This document shows, in pieces, positions 10,506-37,400 of a stretch of 59,712 nt of DNA (position 1 is the first letter of the stretch; every line of letters begins with the position of its first letter). Position numbers and translations under genes: made by a program. The DNA lies in contig PAXN01000054.1 in assembly GCA_002715005.1 (NCBI GenBank), positions 1 through 59,712 of the forward strand. Reading direction: 5' to 3'. The notes beneath the pieces are model-generated. The model had not been told where the DNA came from, did no database searches, and worked only from the letters and a program-made list of their open reading frames with translations. Origin of the DNA: Rhodospirillaceae bacterium. Lineage in GTDB: Bacteria > Pseudomonadota > Alphaproteobacteria > UBA8366.

Positions 10506-10792
10506 GAACACTCCATAGTCCGTTACTGAGTTCGCTTTCGTCGAAAAGTATAAGTGAGTAAATATATACAGGCTATAAACTAAGAAGGAAAAAAGCAGCA
10601 TTTAAGTATGCAAATCAATACTTACGTATATCAAACTCCTTATCATCACAGCTCTCATTCCTGGGATAAATTGTTTGATTTTTGATCAATTTACTTTTAT
10701 CTTTTCAATTAGGTGATACACAACTCTTCAAAAAAGGGTCTGTAGTCTAGCTTGCTAAGTGATTCAAAGGGATTCGAATTCGGAGCTAAACC
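10506..10792. promoter_or_regulatory. Divergent intergenic region between protease and patatin cassette
   Basis: This 287-base AT-rich interval separates two divergent genes and must carry promoters for both. GGAG is correctly spaced before each start (near 10515 for the protease, near 10783 for the patatin gene). I could not pick convincing -35/-10 pairs; no operator palindrome or riboswitch is evident. Confidence 0.5.
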
Positions 10793-16538: not shown

Positions 16539-17654
16539 TTATTCTTTGGCAACCGCCACCGAATAACCATGCTGCTTCAATAGAGCATGTTGCTTTGCTT
16601 TACCAAGGTCGTGTGCCACCATCTCTGCGCACATTTCCTCAACGGTAATTTCTGGCACCCAACCTAGCTTTTCTTTTGCCTTTGTAGGGTCGCCTAGTAG
16701 CGTTTCAACTTCTGCAGGGCGGAAGTAACGTGGGTCTACTTCTACAATAACATCACCCACTTTCACACCTGGCGCAGTTTCGTTATCTACCGCTGTTACC
16801 GTTGCGACTTCTGTCACGCCTTCGCCCGTAAATTCAACAGTAATACCTGCATTCTCTGCTGACATACGCACGAATTCGCGAACCGATATTTGCTTCCCAG
16901 TAGCAATAACAAAATCTTCAGGTTGATCTTGCTGCAACATCATCCACTGCATACGTACATAATCTTTTGCGTGACCCCAGTCACGAAGTGCGTCCATGTT
17001 GCCTAGGTATAGCTTAGACTCTAAACCTTGCGCGATATTGGCGATACCACGTGTAATTTTACGGGTAACAAATGTTTCACCGCGTCGTGGAGATTCATGG
17101 TTAAACAAAATACCGTTACACGCATAAATACCGTAAGACTCGCGATAGTTGACCGCAATCCAGTAGGCATACATTTTTGCTACTGCATATGGCGAGCGAG
17201 GGTGAAACGGCGTCGTTTCTTTCTGTGGAATTTCTTGAACTTCACCGTAAAGCTCTGAAGTAGACGCTTGGTAAAATTTAGTTTTCTTTTCAAGCCCTAA
17301 GAAGCGAATTGCTTCAAGCAAACGTAGCGTGCCCATAGCGTCTACATCCGCAGTGTACTCAGGTGCCTCAAAAGATACCGCTACGTGAGACTGTGCGCCC
17401 AGGTTGTAAACCTCGTCTGGCCGTACTTCTTGCATAATACGGATTAGATTTGACGAATCGGTCAAATCACCATAGTGAAGAATAAAGTTAGCGTTTTCTA
17501 CATGTGGATCTTCATAAATATGGTCAACACGTTCTGTGTTGAATAAAGAAGCACGACGCTTAATACCGTGTACTTCATATCCTTTTTCAAGTAAAAATTC
17601 GGCTAAGTAAGAGCCGTCCTGGCCGGTTACACCGGTAATAAGTGCTTTTTTCAT
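16539..17654 (-). CDS. gmd: GDP-mannose 4,6-dehydratase
   Basis: The 371-residue product is a full-length Gmd. [18 protein letters not shown] (residues 8-25) binds [12 protein letters not shown] (131-138) supplies catalytic Thr/Ser and Glu, and Y156-AVA-K160 is the catalytic Tyr/Lys pair. [17 protein letters not shown] near residue 311 is the family's C-terminal signature. It converts GDP-mannose to GDP-4-keto-6-deoxymannose, the substrate of Fcl. It is the last gene of the ten-gene minus-strand operon and 41 bases from the sulfotransferase upstream. Its usual partner fcl lies beyond the patatin cassette and the protease gene, which suggests an insertion or rearrangement. Confidence 0.97.
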
Positions 17655-17695: not shown

Positions 17696-18340
17696 TTAAG
17701 CGAAAAGCTCCTCGATACTGTATCCACCCACATCAATATCCGCTTTGCATTTATGTGCGATTAACTCCGCGTCAGCATCTTTATAATGCTCACGATAATT
17801 TTTTGCTTTAGACTTGTTCAGTTTTGGAATTACTACATTATCTTCAACTATTTTTCTAGCTATCAGCTCTGGTAGTCCAGTTTTATCAAAATCCTCTACA
17901 CGATAAACCTCATCAACAAGCGAATTTCCAGCTGAATCGGTAGTGAAAGTTTTAATGTCGACGTATCCGTGCGGGTGTCTATTCTTTTCAACTAACCAAA
18001 TTTGTATCCAATCTGAAAAGCTAACCTTAAATGCACTGTCAGCTTCGTACTCTGTCACGTAAAATGGATTTCCGTTCTTATCTGGTTTTGAATAATAGTA
18101 ATTGCTAACGTAACGTGCCCATGGGTTTCTCACGGTGGTAAACTTAAAATAATCGTTCCATTTCCAACCACGCTCACAAAATACATCAAAATACTGCTTG
18201 GCAGTCCAGTGCTCATGAAAGTCACCGGTAGATTTTAATTTGTGGTGTTCACTACATTTATCGAATAAACTTCTTATCGACGTTGAGCCTGTTTTGGGAT
18301 TCGCAAGATATATAAATTTTTTTGTTGATGAGAAGCGCAT
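17696..18340 (-). CDS. Sulfotransferase family protein
   Basis: A 214-residue protein with a 5'-phosphosulfate-binding loop, [14 protein letters not shown] (about residues 13-26), and a 3'-phosphate-binding segment, [15 protein letters not shown] (69-83). It would use PAPS to sulfate a glycan hydroxyl. It differs clearly from the other two sulfotransferases here in sequence and length, so it probably has a different acceptor position. It sits between another sulfotransferase (29 bases upstream) and gmd in the large operon. No membrane segment is seen. Confidence 0.85.
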
Positions 18341-18369: not shown

Positions 18370-19071
18370 TTACTTTGTTGCATAATTAAAGTTTTTAAAG
18401 TCATCAGCAAATAGTGCGTTAACTTTGTTAATGTCGTCCGCTTGATAATATTGGTCGACTAACGAAGTAGCATTAGTCCCCGGAAACTTTACTTGCTTCT
18501 GAGTTGGGAACTTAAGATCGCAACCAATCTCATCGAGTATGAATGCGGCATCTTTTTCGATATTTTCAAACTTCCCTATGAAATCAAATTTTACTCGATC
18601 TGGATGAACGATATCTGATTGTGGGCACCAGTGCTCATTTTTCGCGAAATGATGTTCAGAGTGTAAGAGCCAACCTAAAAAGGTACTGAAGGTAACTTCT
18701 ACTTTTGAACCGGTCTCCTCTTGAATCTTTAAATAGACTTTGTTCCAAAAGTCTTGAGCATGCATACTATTTTCAACGTTATTGAAAGGTTCAACCTTAT
18801 TTCTATACGCTGATAATACTCTTGAATATGGGTCTCTAACAAAAGTAAATTTTTTTATCTTCCCATCTTCGAGAATAGCTTGAGCATTATCAACGTTATT
18901 CAAATAGGTTAACCCAGAATTCTGCCTATCATGAGCCAAGCCACTATCCAAATAATCTTCAGCGCCATTCAGATACCGAAATATACATTTCCAGTTTGTA
19001 CAAGCCACCTTTGGTACGTAGGCAAACGTAAAACTCTTTGATTCTAAATATATAAAATTTGATAAATCCAA
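18370..19071 (-). CDS. Carbohydrate sulfotransferase (HNK-1/chondroitin sulfotransferase type)
   Basis: A 233-residue protein with AYVPKVACTNWKCIFRYLNG near residues 17-36. The VPKVACTNWK motif is the 5'-phosphosulfate loop typical of HNK-1/chondroitin-4-sulfotransferase relatives. FTFVRDPYSRVLSAYRNK (75-92) is the matching 3'-phosphate motif. Family members sulfate hexose or hexosamine units of polysaccharides using PAPS. The gene lies between the fucosyltransferase fusion and a second sulfotransferase, all on the minus strand with gaps under 30 bases, so fucose or a neighbouring sugar may be the acceptor. Bacterial members are usually cytoplasmic, which agrees with the lack of a signal here. 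Confidence 0.88.
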   Translation of the reverse strand: MDLSNFIYLESKSFTFAYVPKVACTNWKCIFRYLNGAEDYLDSGLAHDRQNSGLTYLNNVDNAQAILEDGKIKKFTFVRDPYSRVLSAYRNKVEPFNNVENSMHAQDFWNKVYLKIQEETGSKVEVTFSTFLGWLLHSEHHFAKNEHWCPQSDIVHPDRVKFDFIGKFENIEKDAAFILDEIGCDLKFPTQKQVKFPGTNATSLVDQYYQADDINKVNALFADDFKNFNYATK

Positions 19072-19093: not shown

Positions 19094-21070
19094 TCAATGG
19101 TTAGATAACTTATTAATTGCATCAAAAATCGACTTGCTCATTTTTTCTTCCATTTCTATCGCATTAGGAAAAGGAATAGCGTTTCTTTTTCTAAAGTTTT
19201 CGAATATTTCGTTTCCTCGGCAAGAAATAGATTCCACGCAAAGCTCCATACTAATATCATGTAAGTTAATAAAGCACTCTTCATTCCATATGCTTCCAAT
19301 TAATGGATCTCCCCAGTAAATAGGAACACTTCCAGCCATTAAAGCGTGTACAATTTTTTCTGTATTATAGCCGGGGAAAGAAGAGTTTTCACAGGCTATA
19401 ACGAACTTATATTTGGCGAGTTCTTTTATATACAGTTCGTGCTCTCTTGGAAGTTTGTAACCAGTAGTGTTGAATAAACTCCCATTAGCGTCGACTGAGG
19501 TCTTTGCATCTAAATTCTTAAATAGTCTATTGCGAAGCTCACAATTATCGTTACTGTAGCAAAACTGTATATTTGCGCTTTTTACATTGTTGATGTTTCT
19601 TTTGTAATAATTGTTAACAGTTGAAAATACGCTGATGCCGTGTCTCCTGACGTAGTTTGGCAGCCACGTATGATTTTCATTTTCAACCACATAATGCGAA
19701 AAAATGTGGTCAAACATATCGAAGTCGAGTTGCTTAACCCCTTCTAAGCCGGCGCCATCATGTTCTGCAGAGTAATATACCAGTTTTCCTCTTATCGATT
19801 TTTTTAGATCTTTGTATTTAGCTTTTCTAGGTTTATCAGGTGAATACCAACTTACGACAACAATGTCAGCATTTTTCAAATCACTCGTGTAAGTCACATC
19901 ATAATTTTTTTGTAATAGCGAACCAAAAATAGGGTCTTTGTCAGCCTGAAAACCCGGCCAAAAGCAGTCGAACCCAATAGTGAGCTTTTTATTATTTTTT
20001 ACAACATTTAATCGAGTGCCACTTTCGAAAGCTCTTGTTTCAGTAACTAATCCAGCTAGTGCCACTGCATCGGAAGTCAAACACGATGAATTTTCTAGTT
20101 TTGCGTTTGGCAGATTTAAGATTGAACTGGAATCCTTTACTAGGCTTGAATTGACCAGTCTTAGTTTTATTTTTTGTATACTTTTGCTATTTATAGCATG
20201 AGGAAACGGGCAAAAACGTATAAGAGGTTTAGGATATACACTAGCAGTAGGGATATAAAATTCACCGTCATCTATTGAAATTTCAATTAACGACGTGGGA
20301 TCTTCACTCGCGACAAATTTTAAACCAAGTAGATTTACAGGACTATCAAAGTTAACTATCAACTCTTCGTCAGGTTTAATCAAACAAACCGGCTCAGTCA
20401 ATAGAGACGAACTAAAGAAACTTGCGTTGGAGCTAGTCTTCAGACTTTGGTATTTTCCAAAGTCTGAAAATCTTGATTTTCGAGAGGAAGTAGAGTGCGA
20501 CTTCACCGTTGAACACTTTTCACTTTCAACTTCTATGGCAGAACATAGCTTTCGAACAAGCAGTTGTGATGAAGCAACAGAATGATGAAGAGGATCACTA
20601 TCCTCATAAACATGCGGAAACTCGCTATGTAATATGTCCACTTCTGTCACATTAAAACCAGCTTTTATTAAGGAGCCTTTGCGTACCCTTTTTACGTCAC
20701 AAAAGTTTTTCGATTGCTCTACTGCTTTAGGGCAGATATTGAAAAGCACTATATGAGGGAGTTCATGACTAAACTCTCTAAATAAATTCCCAAGCTCCCA
20801 AAATGTCTTCTCTAGGTATGCTATATCTAAGACGCCCGACTCAGTCATCAAAACATCGTTTATAATTGAGTCTATAACTATCACATCGATTTTGGATACA
20901 ACTGCCAAACTTTTCAACTTTTTCTCAGCCGAAAGAAAATAGGTCGACGGGACATCTCCAACTCGAACATCAGAGACTACACTTATATCTTGACTTAACT
21001 CTAACTCTTTAAAATATGAACCAGATTTTATAGAATTTGATGTCCCTAAAAGAACTATATTTTTATTCAT
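19094..21070 (-). CDS. Fusion of SGNH-hydrolase-like domain with GT10 fucosyltransferase
   Basis: The C-terminal part of this 658-residue protein is a GT10 alpha-1,3/4-fucosyltransferase: YKFVIACENSSFPGYNTEKI at about 554-573, followed by VHALMAGSVPIYWGDP, is the GDP-fucose-binding signature. This fits with gmd and fcl. The N-terminal 180 residues look like an SGNH-type hydrolase fold: LLGTSNSI (about 7-14) is in the block I position, although the usual GDS is changed to GTS, and DPLHHS near 158-163 is in the Asp-x-x-His position. A beta-rich linker domain lies between (about 200-340). Such a fusion suggests that O-acyl transfer or removal is coupled to fucosylation. The GT10 assignment is strong; activity of the SGNH-like part is uncertain. 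Confidence 0.87.
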   Translation of the reverse strand: MNKNIVLLGTSNSIKSGSYFKELELSQDISVVSDVRVGDVPSTYFLSAEKKLKSLAVVSKIDVIVIDSIINDVLMTESGVLDIAYLEKTFWELGNLFREFSHELPHIVLFNICPKAVEQSKNFCDVKRVRKGSLIKAGFNVTEVDILHSEFPHVYEDSDPLHHSVASSQLLVRKLCSAIEVESEKCSTVKSHSTSSRKSRFSDFGKYQSLKTSSNASFFSSSLLTEPVCLIKPDEELIVNFDSPVNLLGLKFVASEDPTSLIEISIDDGEFYIPTASVYPKPLIRFCPFPHAINSKSIQKIKLRLVNSSLVKDSSSILNLPNAKLENSSCLTSDAVALAGLVTETRAFESGTRLNVVKNNKKLTIGFDCFWPGFQADKDPIFGSLLQKNYDVTYTSDLKNADIVVVSWYSPDKPRKAKYKDLKKSIRGKLVYYSAEHDGAGLEGVKQLDFDMFDHIFSHYVVENENHTWLPNYVRRHGISVFSTVNNYYKRNINNVKSANIQFCYSNDNCELRNRLFKNLDAKTSVDANGSLFNTTGYKLPREHELYIKELAKYKFVIACENSSFPGYNTEKIVHALMAGSVPIYWGDPLIGSIWNEECFINLHDISMELCVESISCRGNEIFENFRKRNAIPFPNAIEMEEKMSKSIFDAINKLSNH

Positions 21071-21087: not shown

Positions 21088-23940
21088 TTAAGAGTTTTTG
21101 AGCAATACTTTAAAAATACTTACCAATTCACCTTTGAAAGATGAAATTGATAAACGTTCGTCTCTCTCTTTAAGGTGTCTAATAACAGAGTTTCTATGGA
21201 TTGGTTCGTTAACTATTCTTTCAATATTTTCTTTAGCCTGTGATAGGTCGTCGTAAAATAATGGGTAATCAGCGCCTAAATAACCTTCAAAACCAGTGTG
21301 CCTATTTATCACCAAGCAAGCTCCTGCAGAAATACATTCACTTATTAAATTACTGCCAGCCGGTTGAATATAGCTGTTAAACACTACCTGATTTTTTAAG
21401 ATGTCTTGATACTCATCATTATCTGCCGTGTACATTTCACTTACATAGTCATTTATAGCGCCTAAATTATTCTCGGACAGCTCTTTATTAACAACATCAT
21501 TAATGAAGTAGTCTCTATCGAGATTACCGGGTATCAACAAAACTTTATTCTCTTTTGGAATATCCAATTTTACAAAATCGGAAAACGATCTCAGATGCCA
21601 ACCGATATGATAAACTTTACCTGACAAAGCTCGCTCTTCATTAGAACTTGTGATGGGGATATTAGGGTGGAATGTCGTTAGAACTTTGACTTCTGGATAA
21701 CCAAGCTTTTTCAGTGCCAGCCTCAAATAAGAAGCGTTTTCTTGACTTAGAACAATTAAACCTCGACAGTGCTTTAGACTTTCTATAAATCTTGGCTCCG
21801 CTAATAATGCATCCAAGTTTTGTGCTTCTAAATCATATGAATTGCTCTTGTGCGGTGTGGTATGCACAAAAGCAACCCACGGCTTGCGAAAAACAAAAGT
21901 TCGGTCAGGGTCGTCCTTGTTCCAAAAAAAAGTACGCTCAATAAATAAATCTAAGTACACTCCATGCTCGTTATGAGTAAGCATTTGATTAACATTGTCT
22001 CTAACCCAGTTCCAGCCTAGCAGATGATGATCACCATACGAACCTTCATTTAAACTAAGATCAAACTTATTACTTAGCGCAAGTAGTTTATATTCCGCAT
22101 CCCCATATTTATCGGCTAATTCTAAGAGTGTATTGTAGTTTGATTCTTGGCGTGCATGAGCTTGACTTTCGCTGATGAAAAAAAGTGCCGAATAATTAAC
22201 TTGCTTAAAAATACTGCCTGTAAAAGATGCATTCATCCAAAGAGCTAAATCGGTGTAGGCTCCGTACTTTTCCTCTTCAAAGTAACCAACGTCTTCGTGA
22301 ATTTTTCTTCGCCACACCGAAGATGCATTTGGTATACAATAGCTTCTTAGTACCCTATCAGAGTTCGTTTGAAACATATTTGAATGGTCATAATAGCCAG
22401 CATTTAATGTTTCATAACTAACGACGTTTTGAAAATAGTTATAACTTACTTTTACGTCAAACCACTTATCAAAATGTTCGCCGTTTAACTTCCTAGCTAA
22501 AAAATCATCATATGAATTAATCTTGCTGTCATTAAATGGGACTGTAACAGGGCTTACTACATCACAAATGTCACTCGCTAGCGCTCTTACGCATGTATCT
22601 AGCCACTGCCTCCCCCTGATATCATCTACGTTAAGGTTAGCAATATACTTCGATCTTATGTTTCTAATTGCCACATTCCAACAATCGTAAAGTCCCGGGT
22701 CTTTAAAGACTGGTAAATAGTATACGTTTGGGTGCTTATCTGCTAATGTTGCTAGTCTTCTTGAGGTTTTTTCATCATGACTACCAACTACATCCATAAG
22801 TATTATTACTGGTGAGGTTTCCCCAGATAAAATATCAGAAATGTCGTTTTCAAAACGAGTGGCATACTCATCGGCCCTGAAAATACTGGAGAACAATGTC
22901 ACATCTACGGAACCTGTCCGTCGAATAGCTTCAGGTATATATCTTGAAAACTCTGAAGTAGGTACTTGTGTTTCGTAAGTAGCTCTTATTTCTGACCTAG
23001 ATAGCGCCTTCTCCATCAACACCCAGTTGCTTTGATTGTCACTGTGCTCGTGTTCGGTCGCTGCACTTCCATTATCTATAAAAATGGCATCCACATCTCT
23101 ACTCAAACAAATGTGCTTATATTGTCCTCCTGACTTTACAGATCGGATCAAGAAGTCAATATCATCCATTCCCATGCCAATGAAGTTCTCATTGTATCCG
23201 TTGATTTTTTCAAAAATTAAACGACTGCTCGCTATACGCCCACAACTTCCGTCCCAAGTTAAATTTTCATTGTGATATATATTTTGTGGGAAGAGCTCGT
23301 ATTTTTCCCAATCTTTGTGGAGCATGGGGGCAGGCCCCGTAGTTTGATGAACTATGCTGTTTTCGCCATCTAAAGCGTTCGTAATATGTTCAACATCGCT
23401 TTTATTGACGAAATTATCTGCATCCAGTGAAATTATGTATTCACCATCAGAAAGCCTTGCTGCAGCATTTTTCGCTGCAGCCATATGAAACTTGGCCCAC
23501 GCCTTTTTAATACGAAAATATTTTAACTTCCCAGTTAAAAGATCAAATGAAAAGTTTTTGTCTATAAAGTTCTGGATATCACTTGAATCTTCACCACCGA
23601 AATCAACCACAACAAGTTCTGCACTTTCAAAATTTCGTAAAGTTTCGAGATTAGTTGGCAAAGTTTGTTTTAATTGCCAAAAGCGATTAAATACAGATGT
23701 CACAAAAGAGTAAACAACTCCTTCTCCACTAGTTACTTGTTCACAGTTAAGTCTCTGAATATTACATTCAATAAGAGCCTTTGTTTTATTAATAAGCTCT
23801 ATTCGGCCCTTTTCACTAAGGCTTAGTGATGACTCTATTTCTTCGATCACTTCGCTCGCAGCAATATAGTCCAATTTTGAAAAGTAATATCTAACCTTAC
23901 TCATCAACTCCCAAAAATTATCTTTTTTTAACTCGAGCAT
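21088..23940 (-). CDS. Trimodular glycosyltransferase (two GT-A-like domains and one GT-B-like)
   Basis: A 950-residue protein with, after a short helical N-terminus, a GT2-type domain (about residues 70-300) containing YSFVTSVFNRFWQLKQTLP, the SLDADNF metal-binding segment and a GMGMDDIDFLIR acceptor-side segment. A second GT2-like domain (about 345-600) has VDVTLFSSIFRADEYATRFE and NLNVDDIRGRQWLD. The C-terminal 290 residues contain WVAFVHTTPHKSN, KVLLIPGNLDR and a SNLISECISAGACLVIN segment resembling the donor site of GT-B enzymes. It would add two or three sugars of a repeat unit. It starts with ATG eight bases after the FkbM stop. Donors are unknown. Confidence 0.8.
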   Translation of the reverse strand: MLELKKDNFWELMSKVRYYFSKLDYIAASEVIEEIESSLSLSEKGRIELINKTKALIECNIQRLNCEQVTSGEGVVYSFVTSVFNRFWQLKQTLPTNLETLRNFESAELVVVDFGGEDSSDIQNFIDKNFSFDLLTGKLKYFRIKKAWAKFHMAAAKNAAARLSDGEYIISLDADNFVNKSDVEHITNALDGENSIVHQTTGPAPMLHKDWEKYELFPQNIYHNENLTWDGSCGRIASSRLIFEKINGYNENFIGMGMDDIDFLIRSVKSGGQYKHICLSRDVDAIFIDNGSAATEHEHSDNQSNWVLMEKALSRSEIRATYETQVPTSEFSRYIPEAIRRTGSVDVTLFSSIFRADEYATRFENDISDILSGETSPVIILMDVVGSHDEKTSRRLATLADKHPNVYYLPVFKDPGLYDCWNVAIRNIRSKYIANLNVDDIRGRQWLDTCVRALASDICDVVSPVTVPFNDSKINSYDDFLARKLNGEHFDKWFDVKVSYNYFQNVVSYETLNAGYYDHSNMFQTNSDRVLRSYCIPNASSVWRRKIHEDVGYFEEEKYGAYTDLALWMNASFTGSIFKQVNYSALFFISESQAHARQESNYNTLLELADKYGDAEYKLLALSNKFDLSLNEGSYGDHHLLGWNWVRDNVNQMLTHNEHGVYLDLFIERTFFWNKDDPDRTFVFRKPWVAFVHTTPHKSNSYDLEAQNLDALLAEPRFIESLKHCRGLIVLSQENASYLRLALKKLGYPEVKVLTTFHPNIPITSSNEERALSGKVYHIGWHLRSFSDFVKLDIPKENKVLLIPGNLDRDYFINDVVNKELSENNLGAINDYVSEMYTADNDEYQDILKNQVVFNSYIQPAGSNLISECISAGACLVINRHTGFEGYLGADYPLFYDDLSQAKENIERIVNEPIHRNSVIRHLKERDERLSISSFKGELVSIFKVLLKNS

Positions 23941-23948
23941 GTTCTTTA

Positions 23949-25088
23949 TTAATTACCTAATATTTTTCGATTAAAACAGAAGAGGTTTTCCCCCTTTGTG
24001 AAAAGATCAAAATCTTTACCTAATATTGCGTTTTGAAAGCTTCTTGAAGGTTTTTTATTTAGTAGCATCCAGTCATGTAGTTCGATTACCAGCAAAGGAG
24101 TTTCATCTAGCCATTCTAAATTTTCTTCAAATAAAAGCGATTCGCCGCCCTCAATGTCTAGTTTTACAATCAACAGCTTGTGGTTTTTAAATTGAGATAA
24201 ATTTAAAATGTCACCAATACCCAAGCACTGAACTTCTCCCAAATCTCTAGCACTACCTGCCGAATCCTCCATACAAAATCTGTAAGCCCACTCACCATGG
24301 TTGGGGTCTATAAAACTCCTAGTTTCAATTCTTGAAGATAGTGCCCCTTCAAAAATGAAAACATTCAAGCCTGCTGTATTGGCAGCTAGGATTTCACGAT
24401 TGCTGACGTCCGGCTCTATTGAAATGACACTTGAATAATTGAACTTTTGACAGAAAAAAGCTGCTGAAGCACCAATATTGGCGCCCCCATCTACAATAAG
24501 CGTATTAACTCCATTGTCGTTCAGTTTTCTTTCATATCGTTTGAGAAGTTGAAATTGGGGTATCCAATCGATACCATACTCTCCCTCATTAAAAACCTGA
24601 TCTAAAACCTTAACATCACTTGAGGACTTATGTCGGTAGTAGAAGCTTCTATCTCCATGATCATACGTTTCTAATTTATCCAATAGCGCTTGAGGAGCTT
24701 TATATTGACTTACATCTACAACCTTATGTTCAAGGTTACATAGCGAAAGATTTTTCCTATCTAACTTCTTTTCGATTATTTGTGAGTTTTCTGACTCCAA
24801 ATATTCAAAGTGCATAACTATTTTATTAAGCGTATCAGTATCTAAGCCCAGAGCAGAACACCGCTCTAGCGTTGACTCAGCAAGCTTGTAATCACCGTCT
24901 TGATAAAGATGTGAACATGATAAAACGGCGTAGGCAAAAACGTTCTCCCTCGCAATATTTTCACTATCAATAAGAAATGACTTTAACGATTCAAAATCCC
25001 TCTTAAACAGCAGCGTGGCGACGACACTATTAAGGTCAAAATGGATTTCTTTAGAGAACTTTTCTAACTTTTTGACATTAAAAGTCAT
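23949..25088 (-). CDS. FkbM-family methyltransferase
   Basis: The 379-residue protein has an FkbM-type SAM methyltransferase domain from about residue 165: LIVDGGANIGASAAFF (197-212) is motif I, SVISIEPD (220-227) carries the acidic ribose-binding residue, and LLIVKLDIEGGESLLFEENL is the family's downstream signature. The 160-residue N-terminus is helical and repeat-like and could be a protein-interaction part. FkbM enzymes O-methylate sugars, so this probably caps or decorates the glycan. The gene overlaps the upstream coiled-coil gene by four bases (ATGA), which implies coupled translation. Confidence 0.86.
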   Translation of the reverse strand: MTFNVKKLEKFSKEIHFDLNSVVATLLFKRDFESLKSFLIDSENIARENVFAYAVLSCSHLYQDGDYKLAESTLERCSALGLDTDTLNKIVMHFEYLESENSQIIEKKLDRKNLSLCNLEHKVVDVSQYKAPQALLDKLETYDHGDRSFYYRHKSSSDVKVLDQVFNEGEYGIDWIPQFQLLKRYERKLNDNGVNTLIVDGGANIGASAAFFCQKFNYSSVISIEPDVSNREILAANTAGLNVFIFEGALSSRIETRSFIDPNHGEWAYRFCMEDSAGSARDLGEVQCLGIGDILNLSQFKNHKLLIVKLDIEGGESLLFEENLEWLDETPLLVIELHDWMLLNKKPSRSFQNAILGKDFDLFTKGENLFCFNRKILGN

Positions 25089-26665
25089 TCAACACTTCCT
25101 TTCACGTCAATACCAAACTTATTTAGAATCAAATGTTTTTTATCATTTTTTTTATCTTCCACACACTTCGAGCTTGTTGACTCTAAAGTTTTCTCTAAAA
25201 CAAATAGCATGCGATTAGCATGGGACAGTTCTTCCTCTAGAAACTCATTGTTATTCAATATTTCTCTGTATTTTTCTTTCTCAGAGTCTAATGTCGCCTT
25301 TAATGTATCATTTTCATTCTTAAGACTCTGGTTCCAGACCTTATGCTCGTTATGCCAATGCGCTTCATGCTTTAGCTTTAAACTTTGTGATTGTAATTCG
25401 TCCTCAAGCAATTTTGTTTTTTGTAATAGGTCTAGTTCTAGTTCTTTATTTTTACGCGTATTGTTTTCCTGTACTTCCGTTAGCTGCTTTTGATTTTCTC
25501 TGCTTCGCTGCTCGGCTGTTTTCAGCTGCTCTTTAGCCTGCTGCAATTCGTCGCCTAACTGCTTTTGCTTTTCTTCACTTTGCTGTTGCGCAGTTTGCAA
25601 TTGCTCTTTAGCCTGCTGTAATTCGTCGCCTAACTGCTTTTGCTTTTCATCACTCTGCTGTTGCGCAGTTTGCAATTGCTCTTTAGCCTGCTGCAATTCA
25701 TCGCCTAACTGCTTTTGCTTCTCTTCACTCTGCTGTTGCGCAGTTTGCAGTTGCTCTTTAGCATGCTTCAATTCATCGCCTAACTGCTTTTGCTTCTCTT
25801 CACTCTGCTGTTTCGCAGCGTGAAGTTGCTCTTTAGCATGCTGCAATTCGTCGCCCAACTGCTTTTGCTTTTCTTCACTTTGTTGTTTAGCTGCTTGCAA
25901 CTGTTGCTTGGTCTGCTGTAACTCTTCATCAACGATTTTAGCATTGCTTTGAGAGGCATTAAACTGGCTCTCCAGCTCTGCTTTAATTTCTCTATGCTGC
26001 TGCCTTTGGCTAAAGTAGCTCAGTGCTTGCTTAGTATTTACTTGTTTAGTCGCCACGAAATTGGAGTACGGTGGCATAGGTTCAGCTAATGCAAGGTAAT
26101 CTCGCCCACATTCTGTAAACTCTTTTTCAAGCTTTTCTGCTGGTTTACTTTCACCATAAACAGGCTTTAATGAACTTTGAATTACCACATGGGTGAACGC
26201 ATTTAATAATTGATTGTTCAAGCATTGCTGCTCTGCACCGTTAAGTTGCGAAATAAGCAAACAGGGGCGGCTTTCTGAAATGTCAAACTGCTGTAGTAAA
26301 GGCTTTAGCTCAATAACTGCGGTGTCTTGTTCAGTAAATTCCAGTGCAGGTCGAATACTTTTAATCACATTAGGGGGGAGTACAGAAGAATAGCCCGGCA
26401 CATTTGAAACAAAGCACCGCATGCTTTTTTGGTTAGCTTCAAACGCTGGTACGCCATGCTTTATTACCACACTCTCAGGCGAGCTTTTAGCGTTATGCAG
26501 TAATGTGGCTTTTTCAAACATTGCAGGTTCTGGCTCTACCAAAACAACTTGTGTAGCTGTTAAAGAAAACAACCAATTAAGCATAGCTTCAGTACGTGCA
26601 CCAAGAACTAACACGCACTTGGGTTGCATCGACAGCCCTTTCACTATTTGTAATAAATCACTCAT
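25085..26665 (-). CDS. Coiled-coil protein with degenerate methyltransferase-like N-terminus and 25-residue tandem repeats
   Basis: The N-terminal 215 residues of this 526-residue protein resemble a Rossmann/SAM domain (CVLVLGARTEAMLNWL, then VVLVEPEPAMFEKA) but motif I lacks the usual G-x-G-x-G, so catalysis is doubtful. From about residue 240 it becomes a long coiled coil. Five near-identical 25-residue units (S-E-E-K-Q-K-Q-L-G-D-E-L-Q-Q-A-K...) are encoded by 75-base direct repeats at about 25505-25879. The last 100 residues continue as charged coiled coil. Between FkbM and another coiled-coil protein in the operon, it could be a length ruler or scaffold for the glycan machinery; this is inference. 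The family is not one I can name. Confidence 0.7.
   Translation of the reverse strand: MSDLLQIVKGLSMQPKCVLVLGARTEAMLNWLFSLTATQVVLVEPEPAMFEKATLLHNAKSSPESVVIKHGVPAFEANQKSMRCFVSNVPGYSSVLPPNVIKSIRPALEFTEQDTAVIELKPLLQQFDISESRPCLLISQLNGAEQQCLNNQLLNAFTHVVIQSSLKPVYGESKPAEKLEKEFTECGRDYLALAEPMPPYSNFVATKQVNTKQALSYFSQRQQHREIKAELESQFNASQSNAKIVDEELQQTKQQLQAAKQQSEEKQKQLGDELQHAKEQLHAAKQQSEEKQKQLGDELKHAKEQLQTAQQQSEEKQKQLGDELQQAKEQLQTAQQQSDEKQKQLGDELQQAKEQLQTAQQQSEEKQKQLGDELQQAKEQLKTAEQRSRENQKQLTEVQENNTRKNKELELDLLQKTKLLEDELQSQSLKLKHEAHWHNEHKVWNQSLKNENDTLKATLDSEKEKYREILNNNEFLEEELSHANRMLFVLEKTLESTSSKCVEDKKNDKKHLILNKFGIDVKGSVE
25505..25879 (-). repeat. Tandem array of five 75-bp in-frame repeats
   Basis: Five units of 75 bases encode the 25-residue coiled-coil repeat, with the CTAACTGCTTTTGC segment recurring every 75 bases (for example at about 25556 and 25631). 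A degenerate unit flanks the array on each side. Gain or loss of units would keep the frame and change coil length by 25 residues. Confidence 0.9.
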
Positions 26666-26684: not shown

Positions 26685-29189
26685 TTAGAACTTTGCAACC
26701 ATACCTGATATCAGCTTCTGCCAGTTTTCAAGCGGCTGGTTAACTTTAAGCTTCTTACGGTCGAGCGTATGAAGCCTGTCAGCTAGCTTGGTTAGCAGCT
26801 CCTTTATGAACAACTTGTCTTCTTCTTTTAAGCTGTCGATTGCGTTTTGCTGCTGCTCGTTTAGCTGTGCAGGTAAATCGAGTACTAGTTTTAGCCCCCA
26901 CTTGTCTTCTATTGCAGGCGGCCAGCTAGCCAGTGGCGCTTGGTTGTTGGCAAGTTCTCTAAACTCCAAGCTTCCGTATTCGGTGAATACTTTATCTTTT
27001 ATTTGCTTTGCGCCAACTTTAATATCGAAAGCGGGGTAGCTAGTGCCGTTTGCTTGTAAGTTTTCAATACAAATAAGTAAATGCTCGTTTGTAGCGCCTA
27101 CCATGTTTTGTTTAAGGCTTAGCTTTTTAAAGTTAAGCGGTTTAGGTGCTGGGCTGGGCGTAAGCTTTCTTAGTGCAGTTGAAAGTTTTAATAGCTTTTC
27201 TGGCCATGGGGCAATGTCTATATTTGCGGTGGCATCTGTACGTTGCACGTCGCTTTGCTGAAGTTTAGTTTGTAGTTCCTCAACTATTCCTATAAGCAAT
27301 AGGTGATCTTCTGCTGATAGCTCTGCCAACGCTTTTTTGCCTGCATCAGTAAATGGGCTAAGTAGCGAAAAGTCGCATACTTTATTGCTGCCCGTTTTAA
27401 CAAATTTTGACAATGGGTAAACACGTTTGTTATCTGGCGCATGAAACTCAACGTCTAGTACACCTTTTCTGTCGTTTACAATTACAGAAAATGCATTCCA
27501 GTGTTTGTCGGCGTGCTCTACTTGAGTGAAACGAGCAGTTATGCGCTGCAGATCTTTTTGGTTTGCACCACCGGTTAAGGTTACGCCTTCACTTAGTACC
27601 AGATGTGGGAAGCGCTCCTCTATTTTGCTCTTAAATTCACTAAGAGCTTTGTTATCGGGTGACTCGCCTTTTAATTTTTGGTATTCAGTAAAATAAAACT
27701 CTAGCTCTTCTTGAAGCTGCTTTATTTGTAACTGTAATAGTTCCTGTTCACTCATAGCGTTTTCTAACTCTTTCCTTAATGCTGGCCCATTACCTTCTGA
27801 ATTTGACAACTTAGCCTCTAGCTTATTTATTAGGCCTGCGCTTGTATTTTTATGTTCTTCGAATTGTACATAAATACTTTCTAGCTCTTCTTGCAATTGG
27901 CTTATTTGCAATACTAAGAGCGCGTTCTCATCTTCTGCAGCCAACAATTTTTCTTTTAACGTATTAACAACCTCAGGGTCTGGCTGTTTTTCTTTCGTTG
28001 CAGCTTTTAATTGCGTATTCGTTTGCTCTGCGTTTTCTAACTGCTGTTGCACCTGCGTTAGTTTTGAAAAGGTTACTTCTAATTCTTCTTGAAGCTGTTG
28101 AATTTGAAGTTGTAACAGCGCGTTTTCATCTGCGTTAACTTTATTCTCTTTTATTAGAAATTGCGTTTCAGAATTAGCTTCGGCCAACTTGCGATTGATG
28201 TCGGTATACTTAACTTCTAAGTCGGCAATTGTAACTTTGCTGTTTTCAGCATCAGTAAAAACAGCCTCTAGTTCTTCTTGCAACTGCTGAATTTGAAGCA
28301 CTAGCAGTTCATTCTCGCTTTTTTGTTTATTGCTTTCAGCTACAAGTGCTTTGTTTTCCCCACTAGCCTGCGCTAGTTCAGAGTTAATATCGCGGTTTTG
28401 CTGTGTTAGTTCGGCAATAGCAGCTTGGTTTTTTTTAGCTTCAGTTTCCTTTGTTTCTAACTCGCCTTGAAGAACTTGAATTTTTTGCTTGTTTAACTTC
28501 ACTTCTTCGTGCTGTTCTTTAAGCGCTTTTTCAATGCCTTCTTTTTCGTTTTTAGCGGCGTTTAATAATAAATCTTTCTTCGCATTTTCATTCTTTGCAC
28601 TTATAAGGCTTTGATACTGCTGCAAACTGAAGTGAACAACCTTAGCCCACGACTCAGTATTATCATCTACGCTAAAACCTTCGAACTGCTGCAGTATTTC
28701 ATTTGAATCAATATTCCCCTTCAGCGCACAACGCACTGTTTGAGCTAGTGCTTGCTGCTCGTTTGACAACACAGAATTACTTAACAATTTGATAGAAAAT
28801 TGCTCGCCCAATAAGTACTGATGCTGCTGTAAAGCTTTGAAGTAACTGTTCCAGTTTTCTAAAGCGTTAGATAATTCAGCTTCTTTTACAGGCCTACTAG
28901 CAAATAGCGCAACCACATAAGCTTCTGGCGAAACAAGCAATGCTGTAATCGATTGTGCCTTGCTTATATCTTCACCTGTCTGCTTTATCGCTATATTTAG
29001 GTTTGGCGCGGCTGCATTAACAACGCTTTTTATAAAACCAGCAGCATTGCTTTGCGATTCCTGTTCTTCAGACCAATTTAGGCTTAAAGCGAGCGCCCCT
29101 TGTTGAATTTGGTGTTCTTTTTCTTCACCCTGAATACCTGCATAAGTGAACAAGCTTTCATTAGGTGCAATGACTAACGTTTGACCCAC
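26685..29189 (-). CDS. Long coiled-coil protein with LQIxQLQEELE repeats and a conserved C-terminal domain pair
   Basis: An 834-residue protein. The first 190 residues are globular. A long coiled coil (about 200-520) contains four copies of the motif LLxLQIxQLQEELE, each followed by an aromatic residue and about 50 residues apart. The C-terminal 300 residues form two related beta/alpha units: VEFHAPDNKRVYPLSKFV...LSAEDHLLLIGIVEELQ and SLEFRELANNQAPLASW...LKEEDKLFIKELLTKL. The first unit closely resembles a segment in the next gene (29239-30783). There is no signal peptide. The same LQxxQxQEELE motif occurs, to my recollection, in other bacterial glycan-cluster proteins, but its function is not established. 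A cytoplasmic organiser of the synthesis complex is the best guess. Confidence 0.7.
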   Translation of the reverse strand: MGQTLVIAPNESLFTYAGIQGEEKEHQIQQGALALSLNWSEEQESQSNAAGFIKSVVNAAAPNLNIAIKQTGEDISKAQSITALLVSPEAYVVALFASRPVKEAELSNALENWNSYFKALQQHQYLLGEQFSIKLLSNSVLSNEQQALAQTVRCALKGNIDSNEILQQFEGFSVDDNTESWAKVVHFSLQQYQSLISAKNENAKKDLLLNAAKNEKEGIEKALKEQHEEVKLNKQKIQVLQGELETKETEAKKNQAAIAELTQQNRDINSELAQASGENKALVAESNKQKSENELLVLQIQQLQEELEAVFTDAENSKVTIADLEVKYTDINRKLAEANSETQFLIKENKVNADENALLQLQIQQLQEELEVTFSKLTQVQQQLENAEQTNTQLKAATKEKQPDPEVVNTLKEKLLAAEDENALLVLQISQLQEELESIYVQFEEHKNTSAGLINKLEAKLSNSEGNGPALRKELENAMSEQELLQLQIKQLQEELEFYFTEYQKLKGESPDNKALSEFKSKIEERFPHLVLSEGVTLTGGANQKDLQRITARFTQVEHADKHWNAFSVIVNDRKGVLDVEFHAPDNKRVYPLSKFVKTGSNKVCDFSLLSPFTDAGKKALAELSAEDHLLLIGIVEELQTKLQQSDVQRTDATANIDIAPWPEKLLKLSTALRKLTPSPAPKPLNFKKLSLKQNMVGATNEHLLICIENLQANGTSYPAFDIKVGAKQIKDKVFTEYGSLEFRELANNQAPLASWPPAIEDKWGLKLVLDLPAQLNEQQQNAIDSLKEEDKLFIKELLTKLADRLHTLDRKKLKVNQPLENWQKLISGMVAKF

Positions 29190-29238: not shown

Positions 29239-30783
29239 TTAGCCATTTTCATTAATAAAGCTCTTTATTGCAAAGTACCAGCGTTCTAGCGAATATTGAG
29301 GGGTTTTACCCTTACAATCAGTTTTGTGTATTTTTTCTGCGATTGCTTGAGTTAACTCTACCGTACGTAACTTTAATGCTGGGTTGTCAACATTAACTGA
29401 TAATACGTTATTTACTTTACTGTCTGCTGACAAAAGCACATTAAAAAATGTAGGTTTTGCAGCCCCCTCAATGTTAGCCTCGCCACTGAGCGCCAACTTG
29501 TTATTAGGTGCATTGTTGGCGTCAGTTTTAGTTATTAAAGCTAGTTTCTTAACCGCTATTTTTATACTGGCACTACTAGTGTCACTATTGCTTACTTCTT
29601 TTGTTTTTACTTCTGATAACCTGGCAATAAGCGTTTCAATTGTTTGGCACCACATTTCTAAGCCACCAATAGTGCTTTCTATTACGTTATTTTCAAACAA
29701 AGCCTGTTGTTTCGATAACGCTATGTGCAGCTGCATTAGTATAGTTATCAAATCAGATTGGTCGGTGGTTGAAAGCTTGTAGAACGCACTATTTTCAGCG
29801 TTTTCGGGCATTACTAGCATGTAGTCGGTAACGCCGTTATTACCACTTGTTACAAACTGACGTAGAGGGAAGTAGCGATGAGGCAATGGCGCATAGAATT
29901 CTACTTCCGCTCTTTCACCACGCTTATTAACAATGATAGGAAACGGTTTGCTCTCGCCCGATGTAAGTACAATTCCGCTTACGTTCATAACTAAGCGGCT
30001 TACGTTTTCTTTAACAAACCCTCCGCTTATAGTGACTTGGCAGTTTGAAGTGTCGACACTGTCTCTAGCCGTAAAGGATTTAACTTCGGAGATTGGAAAC
30101 GATGTATTAGTTTTATGATCTGGAGCAAGTTTTTGCAGAACATTTGTTTCTTCGCTTACTGCTTCATCCGAAAACACGCTTTGCTTTTCTTGCTCTTTAG
30201 ACCAGTGCTTTTTTTTGTGTTCTAGCTCATTAACAATGTCAAAGAAGGGTTTGGTAGCCGCCTGTTCCACAATGTTTAAACTATTTTCAAACTCGCCACT
30301 TTCTACCATTTGATTAAACGACAATGGCCCTGTTAAACGCCAGACATCATTACTATTGCGCTCTTTCAAGTTTTTTAAAATGCGATTCCAAATCCATTCT
30401 AGTGCGGGATGACCAGCCCGACACCCTATTGCGCCGTTCATAATACCGCCATGCCACTTTCTAACTAAAAGTAGTAAGTCGCTAGACAGCAAAGGTTGTA
30501 TAGGCGCCTTACATCTAATACCGCAATCAACATAAAACCCACCCATTTTTAAACAATAAGCTACACGAAATATGTCAGACTGCATGGCAGGAAGTGCCGC
30601 TAACTTGAACAAGCTTTCTACTTCACTGTTGTAATGCTGACCAATAAAGGCGCAGGCTTCTTCATACCCAAACAGCTTGTGTTCCATTGAAGGGTTGTAG
30701 TTCTTCCATGTTTCTACTAATTCTGCAATATCGTTTGGTAACTCTGGCGTATTCCAGTACTGAACAATAGTATTAGGTGTCAT
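29239..30783 (-). CDS. GT32-like glycosyltransferase fused to an uncharacterised C-terminal domain
   Basis: The first 180 residues of the 514-residue product match the GT32/'Gly_transf_sug' fold: IVQYWNTPELPNDI, then SDIFRVAYCLKMGGFYVDCG (about 69-88), then GAIGCRAGHPALEWIWNRI and TGPLSFNQM. The metal-binding DxD of the family reads DCG here, so the second aspartate is missing. The C-terminal 300 residues contain AEVEFYAPLPHRYFPLRQFV...STTDQSDLITILMQL, which is homologous to the C-terminal units of the neighbouring coiled-coil protein. The reading frame overlaps the upstream wcbI-like gene by 11 bases. Sugar transfer is likely but the altered motif leaves room for loss of activity. Confidence 0.75.
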   Translation of the reverse strand: MTPNTIVQYWNTPELPNDIAELVETWKNYNPSMEHKLFGYEEACAFIGQHYNSEVESLFKLAALPAMQSDIFRVAYCLKMGGFYVDCGIRCKAPIQPLLSSDLLLLVRKWHGGIMNGAIGCRAGHPALEWIWNRILKNLKERNSNDVWRLTGPLSFNQMVESGEFENSLNIVEQAATKPFFDIVNELEHKKKHWSKEQEKQSVFSDEAVSEETNVLQKLAPDHKTNTSFPISEVKSFTARDSVDTSNCQVTISGGFVKENVSRLVMNVSGIVLTSGESKPFPIIVNKRGERAEVEFYAPLPHRYFPLRQFVTSGNNGVTDYMLVMPENAENSAFYKLSTTDQSDLITILMQLHIALSKQQALFENNVIESTIGGLEMWCQTIETLIARLSEVKTKEVSNSDTSSASIKIAVKKLALITKTDANNAPNNKLALSGEANIEGAAKPTFFNVLLSADSKVNNVLSVNVDNPALKLRTVELTQAIAEKIHKTDCKGKTPQYSLERWYFAIKSFINENG

Positions 30784-31642
30784 ACTTCGATCTTAAAAAT
30801 GCTGCATTTTGTTCGTAGATAGCGTAAAACTGAGATACTAACTCTTCGTTGGTGAACATTGCAGTTCCACCTAGCTCCACATTGGGCCCGTCTATTGATA
30901 GTACGTTTGTTCCTTTTGATTCCTTTCTACTAACTTCAACACATTGAATGCCAGGGGGAACAAGAGGAATAAGCTGGTTTAACGGCTCTAACTGTGAGTT
31001 TATAGCGATATCACTTCCTCTTTCACCCACGATTCGCTCACAGATTCGTTTTGCGTACTCGATCAACAATACCGATGCAGGATGATTGAAAGTGAAGAAA
31101 GTTCTCGATTGCTTGCGGGTAGACTCTATAAAATCTGCAATTTTTACATCTACTACTGCATCTCTTGCTTTCAATTCGTCAAGCGACTTTTGATCTTCTT
31201 TACCATATTCTTGTTTATTGTAGAACGGGTCTGACAACCAGTTCGCAACCTGCTGCTGACTGATCCCTAACAGCCATCCATCAAGAATAGTTTTATTATG
31301 ATATTCGCCAAGAGGCCCCCTAAGTGTGGTTACTTCAGGGTGGCGAATGTACATCAAATCGGGGGTAAAGCCGCTAAAATAAAGGTTCAAAATAGTATGC
31401 GTTTTATCGCCATACAAGCGCTTTATTTCGCTGGTTCGAATAAACTTACATGGGTAAGCATCTGAAATCATTTGCGTAACAATAACATCTGCATCGTTGA
31501 GCGCGTCGCGATATTCTGCCTCATCGCTATCTTTCAATAAATGAACAATTGGCGTAGCTGTTACGCTTATGGTTGGTACAAGCTTTTCGATATAGTTAGC
31601 AAGGGGCCTAGCCTGGCAATTGCCAATAACAACTAATTTCAT
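30773..31642 (-). CDS. WcbI-like polysaccharide biosynthesis protein
   Basis: The 289-residue protein begins KLVVIGNCQARPLANYIEKL, and has DVIVTQMISDAYPCKFIR, then HTILNLYFSGFTPDLMYI and FFTFNHPASVLL further on. This is the pattern of WcbI, a capsule-synthesis protein of Burkholderia whose structure resembles an SGNH-like fold and which has been linked to CoA binding or acetylation. It is the first gene of the ten-gene minus-strand operon, with AAGGTGA as the ribosome site and a GGCGGTAG octamer just upstream. I expect it to modify the glycan, perhaps by acetylation. The family name is fairly sure; the reaction is not. Confidence 0.8.
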   Translation of the reverse strand: MKLVVIGNCQARPLANYIEKLVPTISVTATPIVHLLKDSDEAEYRDALNDADVIVTQMISDAYPCKFIRTSEIKRLYGDKTHTILNLYFSGFTPDLMYIRHPEVTTLRGPLGEYHNKTILDGWLLGISQQQVANWLSDPFYNKQEYGKEDQKSLDELKARDAVVDVKIADFIESTRKQSRTFFTFNHPASVLLIEYAKRICERIVGERGSDIAINSQLEPLNQLIPLVPPGIQCVEVSRKESKGTNVLSIDGPNVELGGTAMFTNEELVSQFYAIYEQNAAFLRSKYDT

Positions 31643-34488: not shown

Positions 34489-37400
34489 TTACTTAGCCAC
34501 CTGCCAAGTATTATCCGTTGGCCTTAATACTCCGCGACTTTTTACTGTAGTACCATCCATCAAATGAACAATATTTCGAGTAGTTACTTCATTTCTCCAC
34601 ATTAAGTCTGCTTTTCCGTCACCGTCATAATCACCTATATTTCCGATTTGCCAGTTAAGGTCTGCAACTTCATTGATAAGCGTGCTGGTGTCTATTTGGC
34701 CGTCTTTCATTAAATAAGCCCAGTTTCTTCCATCTGCTTGGTTTCTTAAAATAATATCTGCAGTTCCATCACCATTTATATCCCCTGTTCCAGCAATTTG
34801 CCAGTTCGTGTTTGCGGTAATTAAGCTGTACTGGCTTGAGATTTCGCCGTCTTCCATTAACCAGATATAAACTAAGCCCGTGGTAGATCTGCGCCATATA
34901 ATATCTTCGTCGCCATCACCATCTATATCGCCCGTAGCGACGACATGGAAGTTAAGGTCTGTAACCCAAAGCGAAGGTTTACTTTCACCAATACGACCAT
35001 TCTCCATTAAATAGAACCACGTATCTCCTCGTTCAACGTTGCGCCACATAACGTCGCCAACACCGTCGGCGTCAAAATCACCGTTGCCTACCAACTGCCA
35101 GGTTTCAGCGGTAACGTAGTTAAGCACGTAGCGGTCTTTGATGTTGGCGCCATCCATTAGATAAATGAAGTTTTTACCTGTGTCGTTGTTGCGCCAGAAG
35201 ATATCTGACTTTCCATCGCCATCGTAGTCGCCAAGGCCATCCATCGTCCATGTGTATTCCTGAACAACATTAATTGGCGTTGCTTCTGATATTTGTGTGC
35301 CGTCCATTGCCCACAAGAAGTTCCAGCCTTTATTGAAGCTTCGCCATAGTAGATCCGCATTACCATCGCCATCTACATCGAACTTAGTGGGCTTATAACG
35401 TGATGGGTCAAACGGGAACGCATCGTCTTCATCGTTAACCCCATCATTGTCGTCATCTGGATCGAGTAAATCAGAGATAAAGTCCCCGTCGTTGTCCGGT
35501 GGTGTACTGCCGCTATCTGATGGGTCAGTGTTATTTCTAAACTCATCCCAATTTGTGTAACCGTCACCGTCAGCATCACCATCGCTATCGGCTAACAACC
35601 AGTTCATCGCGCCTAAATATCTAAGCTCCCACCAGTCAGGAATGTTGTCACCGTCGCTATCGTGATTAGGAGATGTAACAACGGCAGTGCCCGTAGGTAT
35701 AACCGTTGAAATCGCCTGCATTAAAACAGGTGATGAGGTAGAACTTGCCACATAATTACCAATAAGTAACTTACCTGGAGGAAGGTTGTACCCCATGGAA
35801 AGTACGTAGTTTAAAGGTGATATGGCACCGCTGTTTAAGCTTCCTAATTCCCATCTGCCCCATTCACTACCATCACAAACACCTGAACATCCACCAGCAG
35901 TGGTACTGTTTGGATAGCTACTATATTGCGGCGCATTAGAAGTAACTCTGACTTCTGCAATTTGGGTAGGACTAGTGACTTCGAGCTCAAGATTTACCGT
36001 GGCTGTCGACTCACTGGTTATCGGAGTCGTGTACACATTTTCAACATCTAGAACGAAAGGCACTTGGTTGTGTATAGCAGTAACAAGGTTGCTTCTGCTT
36101 ACGCTATCAGCATTGTCCTCGCTAATTATTTCCGCCTCTATTTTCATTGTTTGGCCGTTAGTTACCGTAGAGTTCGCTTTCAAGCTAAAAGCTACCGCAC
36201 CTGAATGACTGGCTTCTATCGTTCCTAAGGGCCAGTAGATTACATTGCCTACCTTTTCATTTACCCCCGTAGCGCTCTGATAACTGTATCCTTCAGGAAT
36301 GGTTACCTTCAACAGGGCATTGGGATATGCGGTTGCGCTTGAATTACCATAGCTCACTTGAAAGCTTTGAATTTCATTCGCTTTTATTACACTTCGTTGC
36401 GAGGAAAGCACCATTTCTAACGGCAGTACAGCTGAGGTTAACAAAGATTGTCTAGCAGTTACTTGCAAGTCACCAGAAGCTTCTGTTGCATAAGCAATAA
36501 TGTCTAAGGGCTCGCCCGATACTGCATTGGTTGTGTAAAAAGGAATAGATATAGTTCTAGACTCGCCAGCCTTTAGGGTATCTAAAATCCAGCGACCTCT
36601 TTCATGATAGTCACACGCTCCACTGCAGCCCGCTGAAATTCCGGGAGAGGGGCGTGAATGGTGCAAACGTGTTCCCGTTTGAATATGTAATTGCACATCT
36701 GAAATGTCTAAAGCGCCTTCGTTTGCGACCACGAACTTTTGGTAACTGTATAGGTCTTGCTGGTGTAATGTGCTTGCTCGCGACGCTGTAACAGTTAACT
36801 TCACGTCTTCTTTAATTACTATGCTATCTGCAGAGCGTTGAACACGTTCAGTGCTATTGTATACCGCAGCTTCTAGTGAAATTGGCGTACCTTCAGTAAG
36901 CTCTGTATCCACGTCGAAGTACGCATAGTGCATACCTCCATCGCCAGGATTTACTGTTCCCAAATTCCATTGTAGCTGGCCATTTGCGATAAACGCACCG
37001 TCGCTCCCTGAAACAAAAGTAAGGTTTTCTGGAATAGGTAATTTCAACATAACGTCGGTGTACGCATCGCTACCTAATTGCCCGTACGTAATCTCATAGC
37101 GCACACGCTCGCCTACAGCAACTTGTTGCTTATCTGAAACAAGTGATAACTGCATATCATTATCACTCTTAGCAACAAACGTGGGTTGTAGCGTTAAGTT
37201 ATATGATTTCGTAGCATCGTCTACATGAAGCTGAATTTCTAAAGGCTCACCCTTTGTAATTTGATTGTAATAGATAGGAACAACAACAAAGCGTGACTCA
37301 CCGGCGCCAATTACAGGAAATGTCCACCTTGCCCATTCACCAGAATCGCAAGCCCCTGAACAACCACCTGTAATACCTGGCATAGGTAGTGTAAAGGCTG

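Follow-up and report, generated by a model that had tools for sequence, protein, structure and literature searches.

A single tandem array was detected by TRF in the window, i.e., the whole 59.7-kb stretch of DNA that was analyzed (positions 25518 to 25887; period of 75; 4.9 copies; 92% match; 0 indels; score of 593). It lies in a gene for a 526-aa protein for which no Pfam family was found, and the gene content of the locus (Table 1) bears out an earlier note on this DNA, which had placed a coiled-coil protein in a glycan operon. A 4-base overlap joins the coil gene, at its stop codon, to the ATG of the adjacent FkbM methyltransferase gene, which occupies the position that a sulfotransferase gene holds in relatives. 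The C-terminal domain of the upstream partner is homologous to that of the Gly_transf_sug glycosyltransferase (~32% over 110 aa), and no Pfam family was found for this region. An LQIxQLQEELExYF-like motif in the coil of the partner recurs in otherwise unrelated upstream genes at two related loci, L019 and L020 (genomes G203 and G234).

Table 1. Features of the array-bearing gene and its neighbors (positions in the window)
Feature	Position	Strand	Remarks
GDP-mannose 4,6-dehydratase (gmd)	16539..17654	-	Distal border of swapped cassette
Second sulfotransferase (Sulfotransfer_2)	17696..18340	-	Pfam; weaker match
Sulfotransferase (Sulfotransfer_2)	18370..19071	-	Pfam
Glycosyltransferase family 10 (fucosyltransferase type)	19094..21070	-	Pfam
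Multidomain glycosyltransferase (GT2 / Glyco_transf_7C)	21088..23940	-	Pfam
FkbM methyltransferase, next gene	23949..25088	-	379 aa; PF05050, 26.2 bits; TIGR01444, 52 bits
Array host gene (ORF)	25085..26665	-	526 aa; FkbM-like head, coiled coil with array, C-terminal tail
C-terminal tail (aa 497-526)	25088..25177	-	Without the C-terminal motif conserved in 13 relatives
Coil beyond array (aa 386-496)	25178..25510	-	Helix in model; HWHNEHKVWNQSL motif
Five complete units, whole set (aa 261-385)	25511..25885	-	In frame, 25 residues each
Repeat unit 5 (aa 361-385)	25511..25585	-	
Repeat unit 4 (aa 336-360)	25586..25660	-	
Repeat unit 3 (aa 311-335)	25661..25735	-	
Repeat unit 2 (aa 286-310)	25736..25810	-	
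Repeat unit 1 (aa 261-285)	25811..25885	-	
N-terminal domain (aa 1-205)	26051..26665	-	FkbM-methyltransferase-like by family
Partner, directly upstream of coil gene	26685..29189	-	834 aa; coil and conserved C-terminal domain
Glycosyltransferase (Gly_transf_sug)	29239..30783	-	C-terminal part resembles that of partner
WcbI-family polysaccharide biosynthesis enzyme	30773..31642	-	PF18588, E = 2.5e-36

The TRF result confirms the in-frame 75-bp array of five 25-residue units that had been described earlier, with the register shifted by 6 bases. The unit sequence is QQSEEKQKQLGDELQQAKEQLQTAQ, with few changes among the five copies. Pairs of units differ at 3 to 12 of 75 bases; units 2 to 4 are closest to one another (3 to 7 of 75 bases), units 1 and 5 are the most divergent, and both silent and amino acid substitutions are present. 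When the codons of the coil were shuffled 200 times, TRF returned 7 rows, with a top score of 74 versus 593 for the real gene. Hydrophobic residues in the array recur with a period of 3.57, or 25/7, and none of 1,000 shuffles gave an equally strong signal. Since 25 residues do not make a whole number of heptads, this period indicates a unit of three heptads and four further residues (one stutter), which rules out a plain heptad array; the "heptad-like" units proposed earlier are borne out in part. No significant periodicity was found in the rest of the window coil. Every 25-residue unit contains a glycine.

Almost certainly, the contig derives from Alteromonas and was mis-binned into another genome. 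This follows from the divergence of rpoB, with 58% identity between the host assembly (G000) and Alteromonas portus, from 24 window proteins (0.4 to 56 kb) that are 87 to 99.7% identical to A. portus proteins and keep their order, and from a GC content of 40% in the window versus 44 to 50% in five other stretches of G000. The mis-binning explains why searches for relatives in the window's own genome and own family sets returned only the window itself (1/190 and 1/11). No relatives were found among viral contigs and plasmids.

In the genus set of A. portus, 7 of 59 genomes encode the N-terminal domain, and a profile built from eight heads matched 29 of 395 genomes in its family set, 4 of which were already in the genus set. 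The 28 loci examined comprise the window, the 7 from the genus set, and those of 20 of the 25 further family-set genomes; G275, G306, G436, G239, and G440 (the weakest) lie outside the 28. L062 and L067 were included on the basis of blast clustering and position rather than an HMM pass, and L063 is truncated by the end of its contig. Overall, the 526-aa protein is a member of a family found in surface-glycan loci. Literature searches on an FkbM-headed coiled-coil family, on Alteromonas, and on glycan termination, the broader ones by titles and abstract openings, found no paper describing it. At L046 (G275), the family protein and a TPR-like region are fused in one frame, resembling a merger of the coil protein with the next gene.

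The heads of 16 of the 28 members match TIGR01444 at an E value of ≤0.01 (best E, 6.2e-12), a likeness to the FkbM family (TIGR01444 and PF05050), to which the coil is foreign. The window head, in contrast, has no Pfam match at an E value of ≤1 and no TIGR01444 match, and in the alignment its SAM motif I is degenerate (LGARTEAML, versus GAGxG in many relatives). Given the role of this motif and the missing family match, catalysis may have been lost in the window head. A direct profile comparison between the head and the 379-aa FkbM protein of the window was unsuccessful. AlphaFold, run on an input of two sequences, gave pLDDT values of <50 nearly throughout the head in the full-length model and averaging 38.5 when the head was modeled by itself. 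The model places helix at aa 211 to 341 and 367 to 496 (pLDDT mostly 53 to 91), interrupted at aa 342 to 366. Together, the FkbM-like heads and the modeled helix give a layout with a methyltransferase-like head and, behind it, an extended coil. The lack of significant periodicity outside the array, the glycine in each unit, and the break in the modeled helix make a rigid rod uncertain. No membrane segment was seen by eye in the 526-aa protein. The HWHNEHKVWNQSL motif of the coil beyond the array is common to the window, A. portus, and a third species, G211. A KxWAESL pattern, partly tailored to the sequences, occurs in only 8 of the 28 family genes and was dropped as a mark of the family.

The number of units differs between species, each represented by one genome: TRF reports 4.9 copies in the window, 1.9 in the nearest relative, A. 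portus, and none detectable in the third species, G211. The unit number is thus not constant, in agreement with the earlier proposal that the length of the array can change. Of the 28 family genes, 10 contain TRF arrays with a period of at least 42 nt, versus 2 of the 248 other ORFs from these loci (≥300 aa each; Fisher P = 1.3e-9). Excluding the window, which was picked because of its array, the count is 9/27. L068, in which Ns mask the coil, was counted as "none" among the 28. Both of the array-bearing control ORFs are the genes directly upstream of a family gene. Arrays as a general feature of these loci are ruled out by the 248-gene control, and homologues of the coiled partner contained none (0/10). 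The run of Ns in L068 (G576) falls exactly in the coil, and its sister L066 carries a long array; arrays of this kind may be masked or collapsed in short-read assemblies.

Nine arrays are separate, the window and A. portus sharing one and the others having different units or being distant in the tree. Their main unit lengths are 25, 25, 25, 56, 21, 35, 64, 49, and 56 aa, all whole codons. Multiples of 7 account for five of the nine (binomial P = 0.0045), and eight of nine fit once steps of 3 or 4 residues are also accepted (P = 0.006), although both tests were picked after the data had been seen and one main period was taken per gene, several genes, L066 above all, reporting more than one. On the head tree, 10 changes are needed to account for array presence, which clusters no more than it does with shuffled labels. 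Among the 12 whole members that bear a conserved C-terminal motif, the head and the motif lie 75 to 494 aa apart, a 6.6-fold spread. The length of coiled coils is reported to be, on average, 3.6 times less variable than that of other regions (PMC5082667). A spread of this size would also be expected under loose selection, a point against a ruler.

The C-terminal motif was defined by a profile built on the final 80 residues in seven Alteromonas relatives (the seeds). It matches 13 of the 28 family genes (12 whole genes and the tail of L068 behind its gap) and no other ORF of the examined loci. A sulfotransferase-like gene lies directly downstream in exactly those 13, and both motif and gene are absent in all 15 others. 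PF13469 scores above the cutoff in the downstream genes of L018 and L003 and below it in that of L015. When the seven seeds are left out, motif and sulfotransferase still coincide in 6/6 versus 0/15 members (P = 1.8e-5). On the tree, this joint state changes six times, at least five of them on well-supported branches, and five independent pairs all point in the same direction, the maximum possible for five (P = 0.0625, the motif being scored as present wherever the sulfotransferase gene was, in line with the observed match). The correlation suggests that the two proteins may be in contact; since motif and next gene are adjacent, a single recombination could also shift both without such contact.

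The window lacks both the motif and a downstream sulfotransferase gene, having the FkbM methyltransferase gene next, as do L060, L065, and L070. At L052, L054, L055, L056, L058, and L062, the coil runs into a domain with a methyltransferase-like motif as judged by eye (e.g., IIEFGSGTST). Of the four scanned with Pfam, L052 gave a weak match (E = 0.0044), and nothing methyltransferase-like came up in the fused domains of L055, L056, and L058. A fused FkbM domain is present in L049, which is not among the 28, and no enzyme was recognized at the distal end in L053, L057, L063, L064, and L067. We also considered whether the window tail belongs to a second tail type with a VEAQIELLKDI-like end found in seven members; this was rejected, as its best score was -1.6 and shuffled tails reached 4.3.

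Comparison of the window with A. portus at the DNA level shows 92 to 100% identity in the upstream partner gene (200-base steps) and ~88 to 92% in the head. The coil then diverges completely after ~aa 331, and the cassette is different down to gmd. Between A. portus and G211, identity is 97 to 98% in most of the head and 69 to 86% in the preceding 1.2 kb. From these breaks, the coil gene lies at the border of a swapped cassette and seems mostly to move together with that cassette. The glycan island of A. portus is flanked by a lone flagellin-like gene by the ribosomal alpha operon and by a type I secretion-like trio (names assigned by eye; contig C2:90611-91963 and C2:1427-5700).

No exporter or polymerase was recognized in the window. 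Homologues of both KpsM and KpsT occur in 10 of the 28 loci and were not found in the other 18, the search covering the whole 60 kb of the window and stretches of ~18 to 21 kb at the other loci; Poly_export occurs in 7 of the 28, the window again having none. Pfam confirms KpsM and KpsT in L057 and L019 and KpsM in L020. In all seven related Alteromonas genomes, a KpsM-like gene lies elsewhere, ~2 kb from the one for a large Poly_export protein (open frame of 606 to 610), and A. portus has a KpsE-T-M-D-like set elsewhere in its genome, in which one gene is presumably kpsE, as judged from homology and gene order. The window glycan could possibly be exported by a distant Kps-like set. The KpsT homologues are 222 to 249 aa long (231 aa in A. 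portus), which, judged by length, is too short for a carbohydrate-binding module like the one in WbdD systems. PF05159 (Capsule_synth, the KpsC/KpsS type of beta-Kdo transferases), sought as a mark of a group 2 (KpsCS) capsule, was found in two of the seven related Alteromonas genomes and also in several family loci outside those seven.

The closest parallel in layout is WbdD of Escherichia coli O8/O9a and Klebsiella pneumoniae O5/O3, which is described as an N-terminal methyltransferase (residues 1 to 210), a coil, and a C-terminal polymerase-recruiting region, and in which a longer or shorter coil gives a longer or shorter O antigen (PMC5082667, PMC11231755, PMC3482155). A 2024 study presents the coiled-coil protein as a characteristic marker of this strategy (PMC11231755). 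The family shares with WbdD, as described in those papers, an N-terminal methyltransferase domain of ~210 residues, a long coil, and a glycan locus, and the noncatalytic recruitment region of WbdD may have a counterpart in the enzyme-associated distal end seen here. However, the head is FkbM-like, the distal end goes with a sulfotransferase, an FkbM methyltransferase, or a fused methyltransferase-like domain, relatives have a short KpsT, and the coil carries tandem arrays, of which the literature searches found no report for WbdD. No kinase domain was recognized in the family, and a profile of the 28 heads returned no WbdD among its 10 matches to solved structures at an E value of ≤1. We therefore do not file the family as WbdD, no kinship having been found and the ATPases being too short, although its working may be WbdD-like.

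WbbB of K. pneumoniae O12 and the O4/O7 terminators likewise have a coil between enzyme modules that belong to one assembly pathway and vary in order and fusion, as outlined in PMC11231755. Their terminators are glycosyltransferases or kinases, whereas none of this kind was recognized in the family members scanned. PCP and KpsE copolymerases are also coiled and tied to export and chain length (PMC12220298); they are membrane proteins with periplasmic coils, unlike the FkbM-headed protein described here.

We tentatively favor, at somewhat less than even odds, a reading in which a spacer coil, with the array as its extensible part, keeps a glycan-modifying enzyme apart from another part of the assembly machinery. 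The distal end would be tied to the modifying enzyme, be it the sulfotransferase or FkbM methyltransferase encoded by the next gene or the fused methyltransferase-like domain. In a manner like that of WbdD for O8/O9a O antigen, the coil would set the distance of the enzyme, and chains would be modified or stopped only on reaching it. At 0.1485 nm per residue, a 25-residue unit would lengthen the helix by ~3.7 nm, so that in-frame gain or loss of units would alter the reach and leave both ends untouched. It is by analogy that we infer a physical docking, a ruler function, and an effect on chain length. The broader proposal that the Alteromonadaceae family consists of evolvable rulers for ABC-exported glycans, whose in-frame arrays re-set the coil mostly in register and thereby polymer length or modification spacing in steps, is rather doubtful.

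The same co-occurrence of the coil end with the next enzyme gene would be expected of a scaffold that does no counting and tethers the neighboring sulfotransferase or methyltransferase and other cassette enzymes in a single complex, its length drifting and mattering little. The overlap of the coil and FkbM genes, the swapping of the cassette together with the 3' part of the coil gene between the window and A. portus, and the very wide range of spacer lengths all fit such a tether, which is a possible if somewhat unlikely explanation; taken alone, however, it leaves unexplained both the frequency of arrays in the family coil versus their absence from the partner coils and the excess of unit lengths in heptad register. 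In another explanation, low-complexity Q/E/K/A coil DNA would be duplicated through slippage during replication, with tolerance of any product that is in frame and helix compatible. Neutral slippage of this kind agrees with the scatter of arrays over the tree, the silent and amino acid changes within units, and the variation of unit length by lineage. It is nonetheless unlikely in view of the near absence of arrays from control genes and from the long partner coils of the same loci, and of a variable middle flanked by two conserved gene ends. Finally, the repetitive coil might serve as a site of cassette exchange, with length change as a by-product. Agreement of the window and A. portus to ~aa 331 and the sharp rise in A. 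portus/G211 identity at the head are what such an adaptor would leave, but the second junction is at the gene start, outside the array, and many array-bearing members show no such exchange in the available data (the comparison covering three close genomes), which makes this explanation very improbable. In our ranking, the spacer or ruler comes first as the most likely, the plain tether second, and neutral slippage third.

With nine separate arrays in different lineages, between conserved ends and beside a swappable modifying enzyme, the coil would provide a natural set of ruler variants. Even as no more than a loose tether, it would point to a scaffold family of marine glycan loci that is not yet described. 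Elsewhere in the window, four large proteins (6108-10601, 34489-39090, 41648-46036, and 46883-49954), one of them a subtilase, have similar FG-GAP C-terminal regions of ~300 aa, which are possibly a common sorting domain or glycan target.
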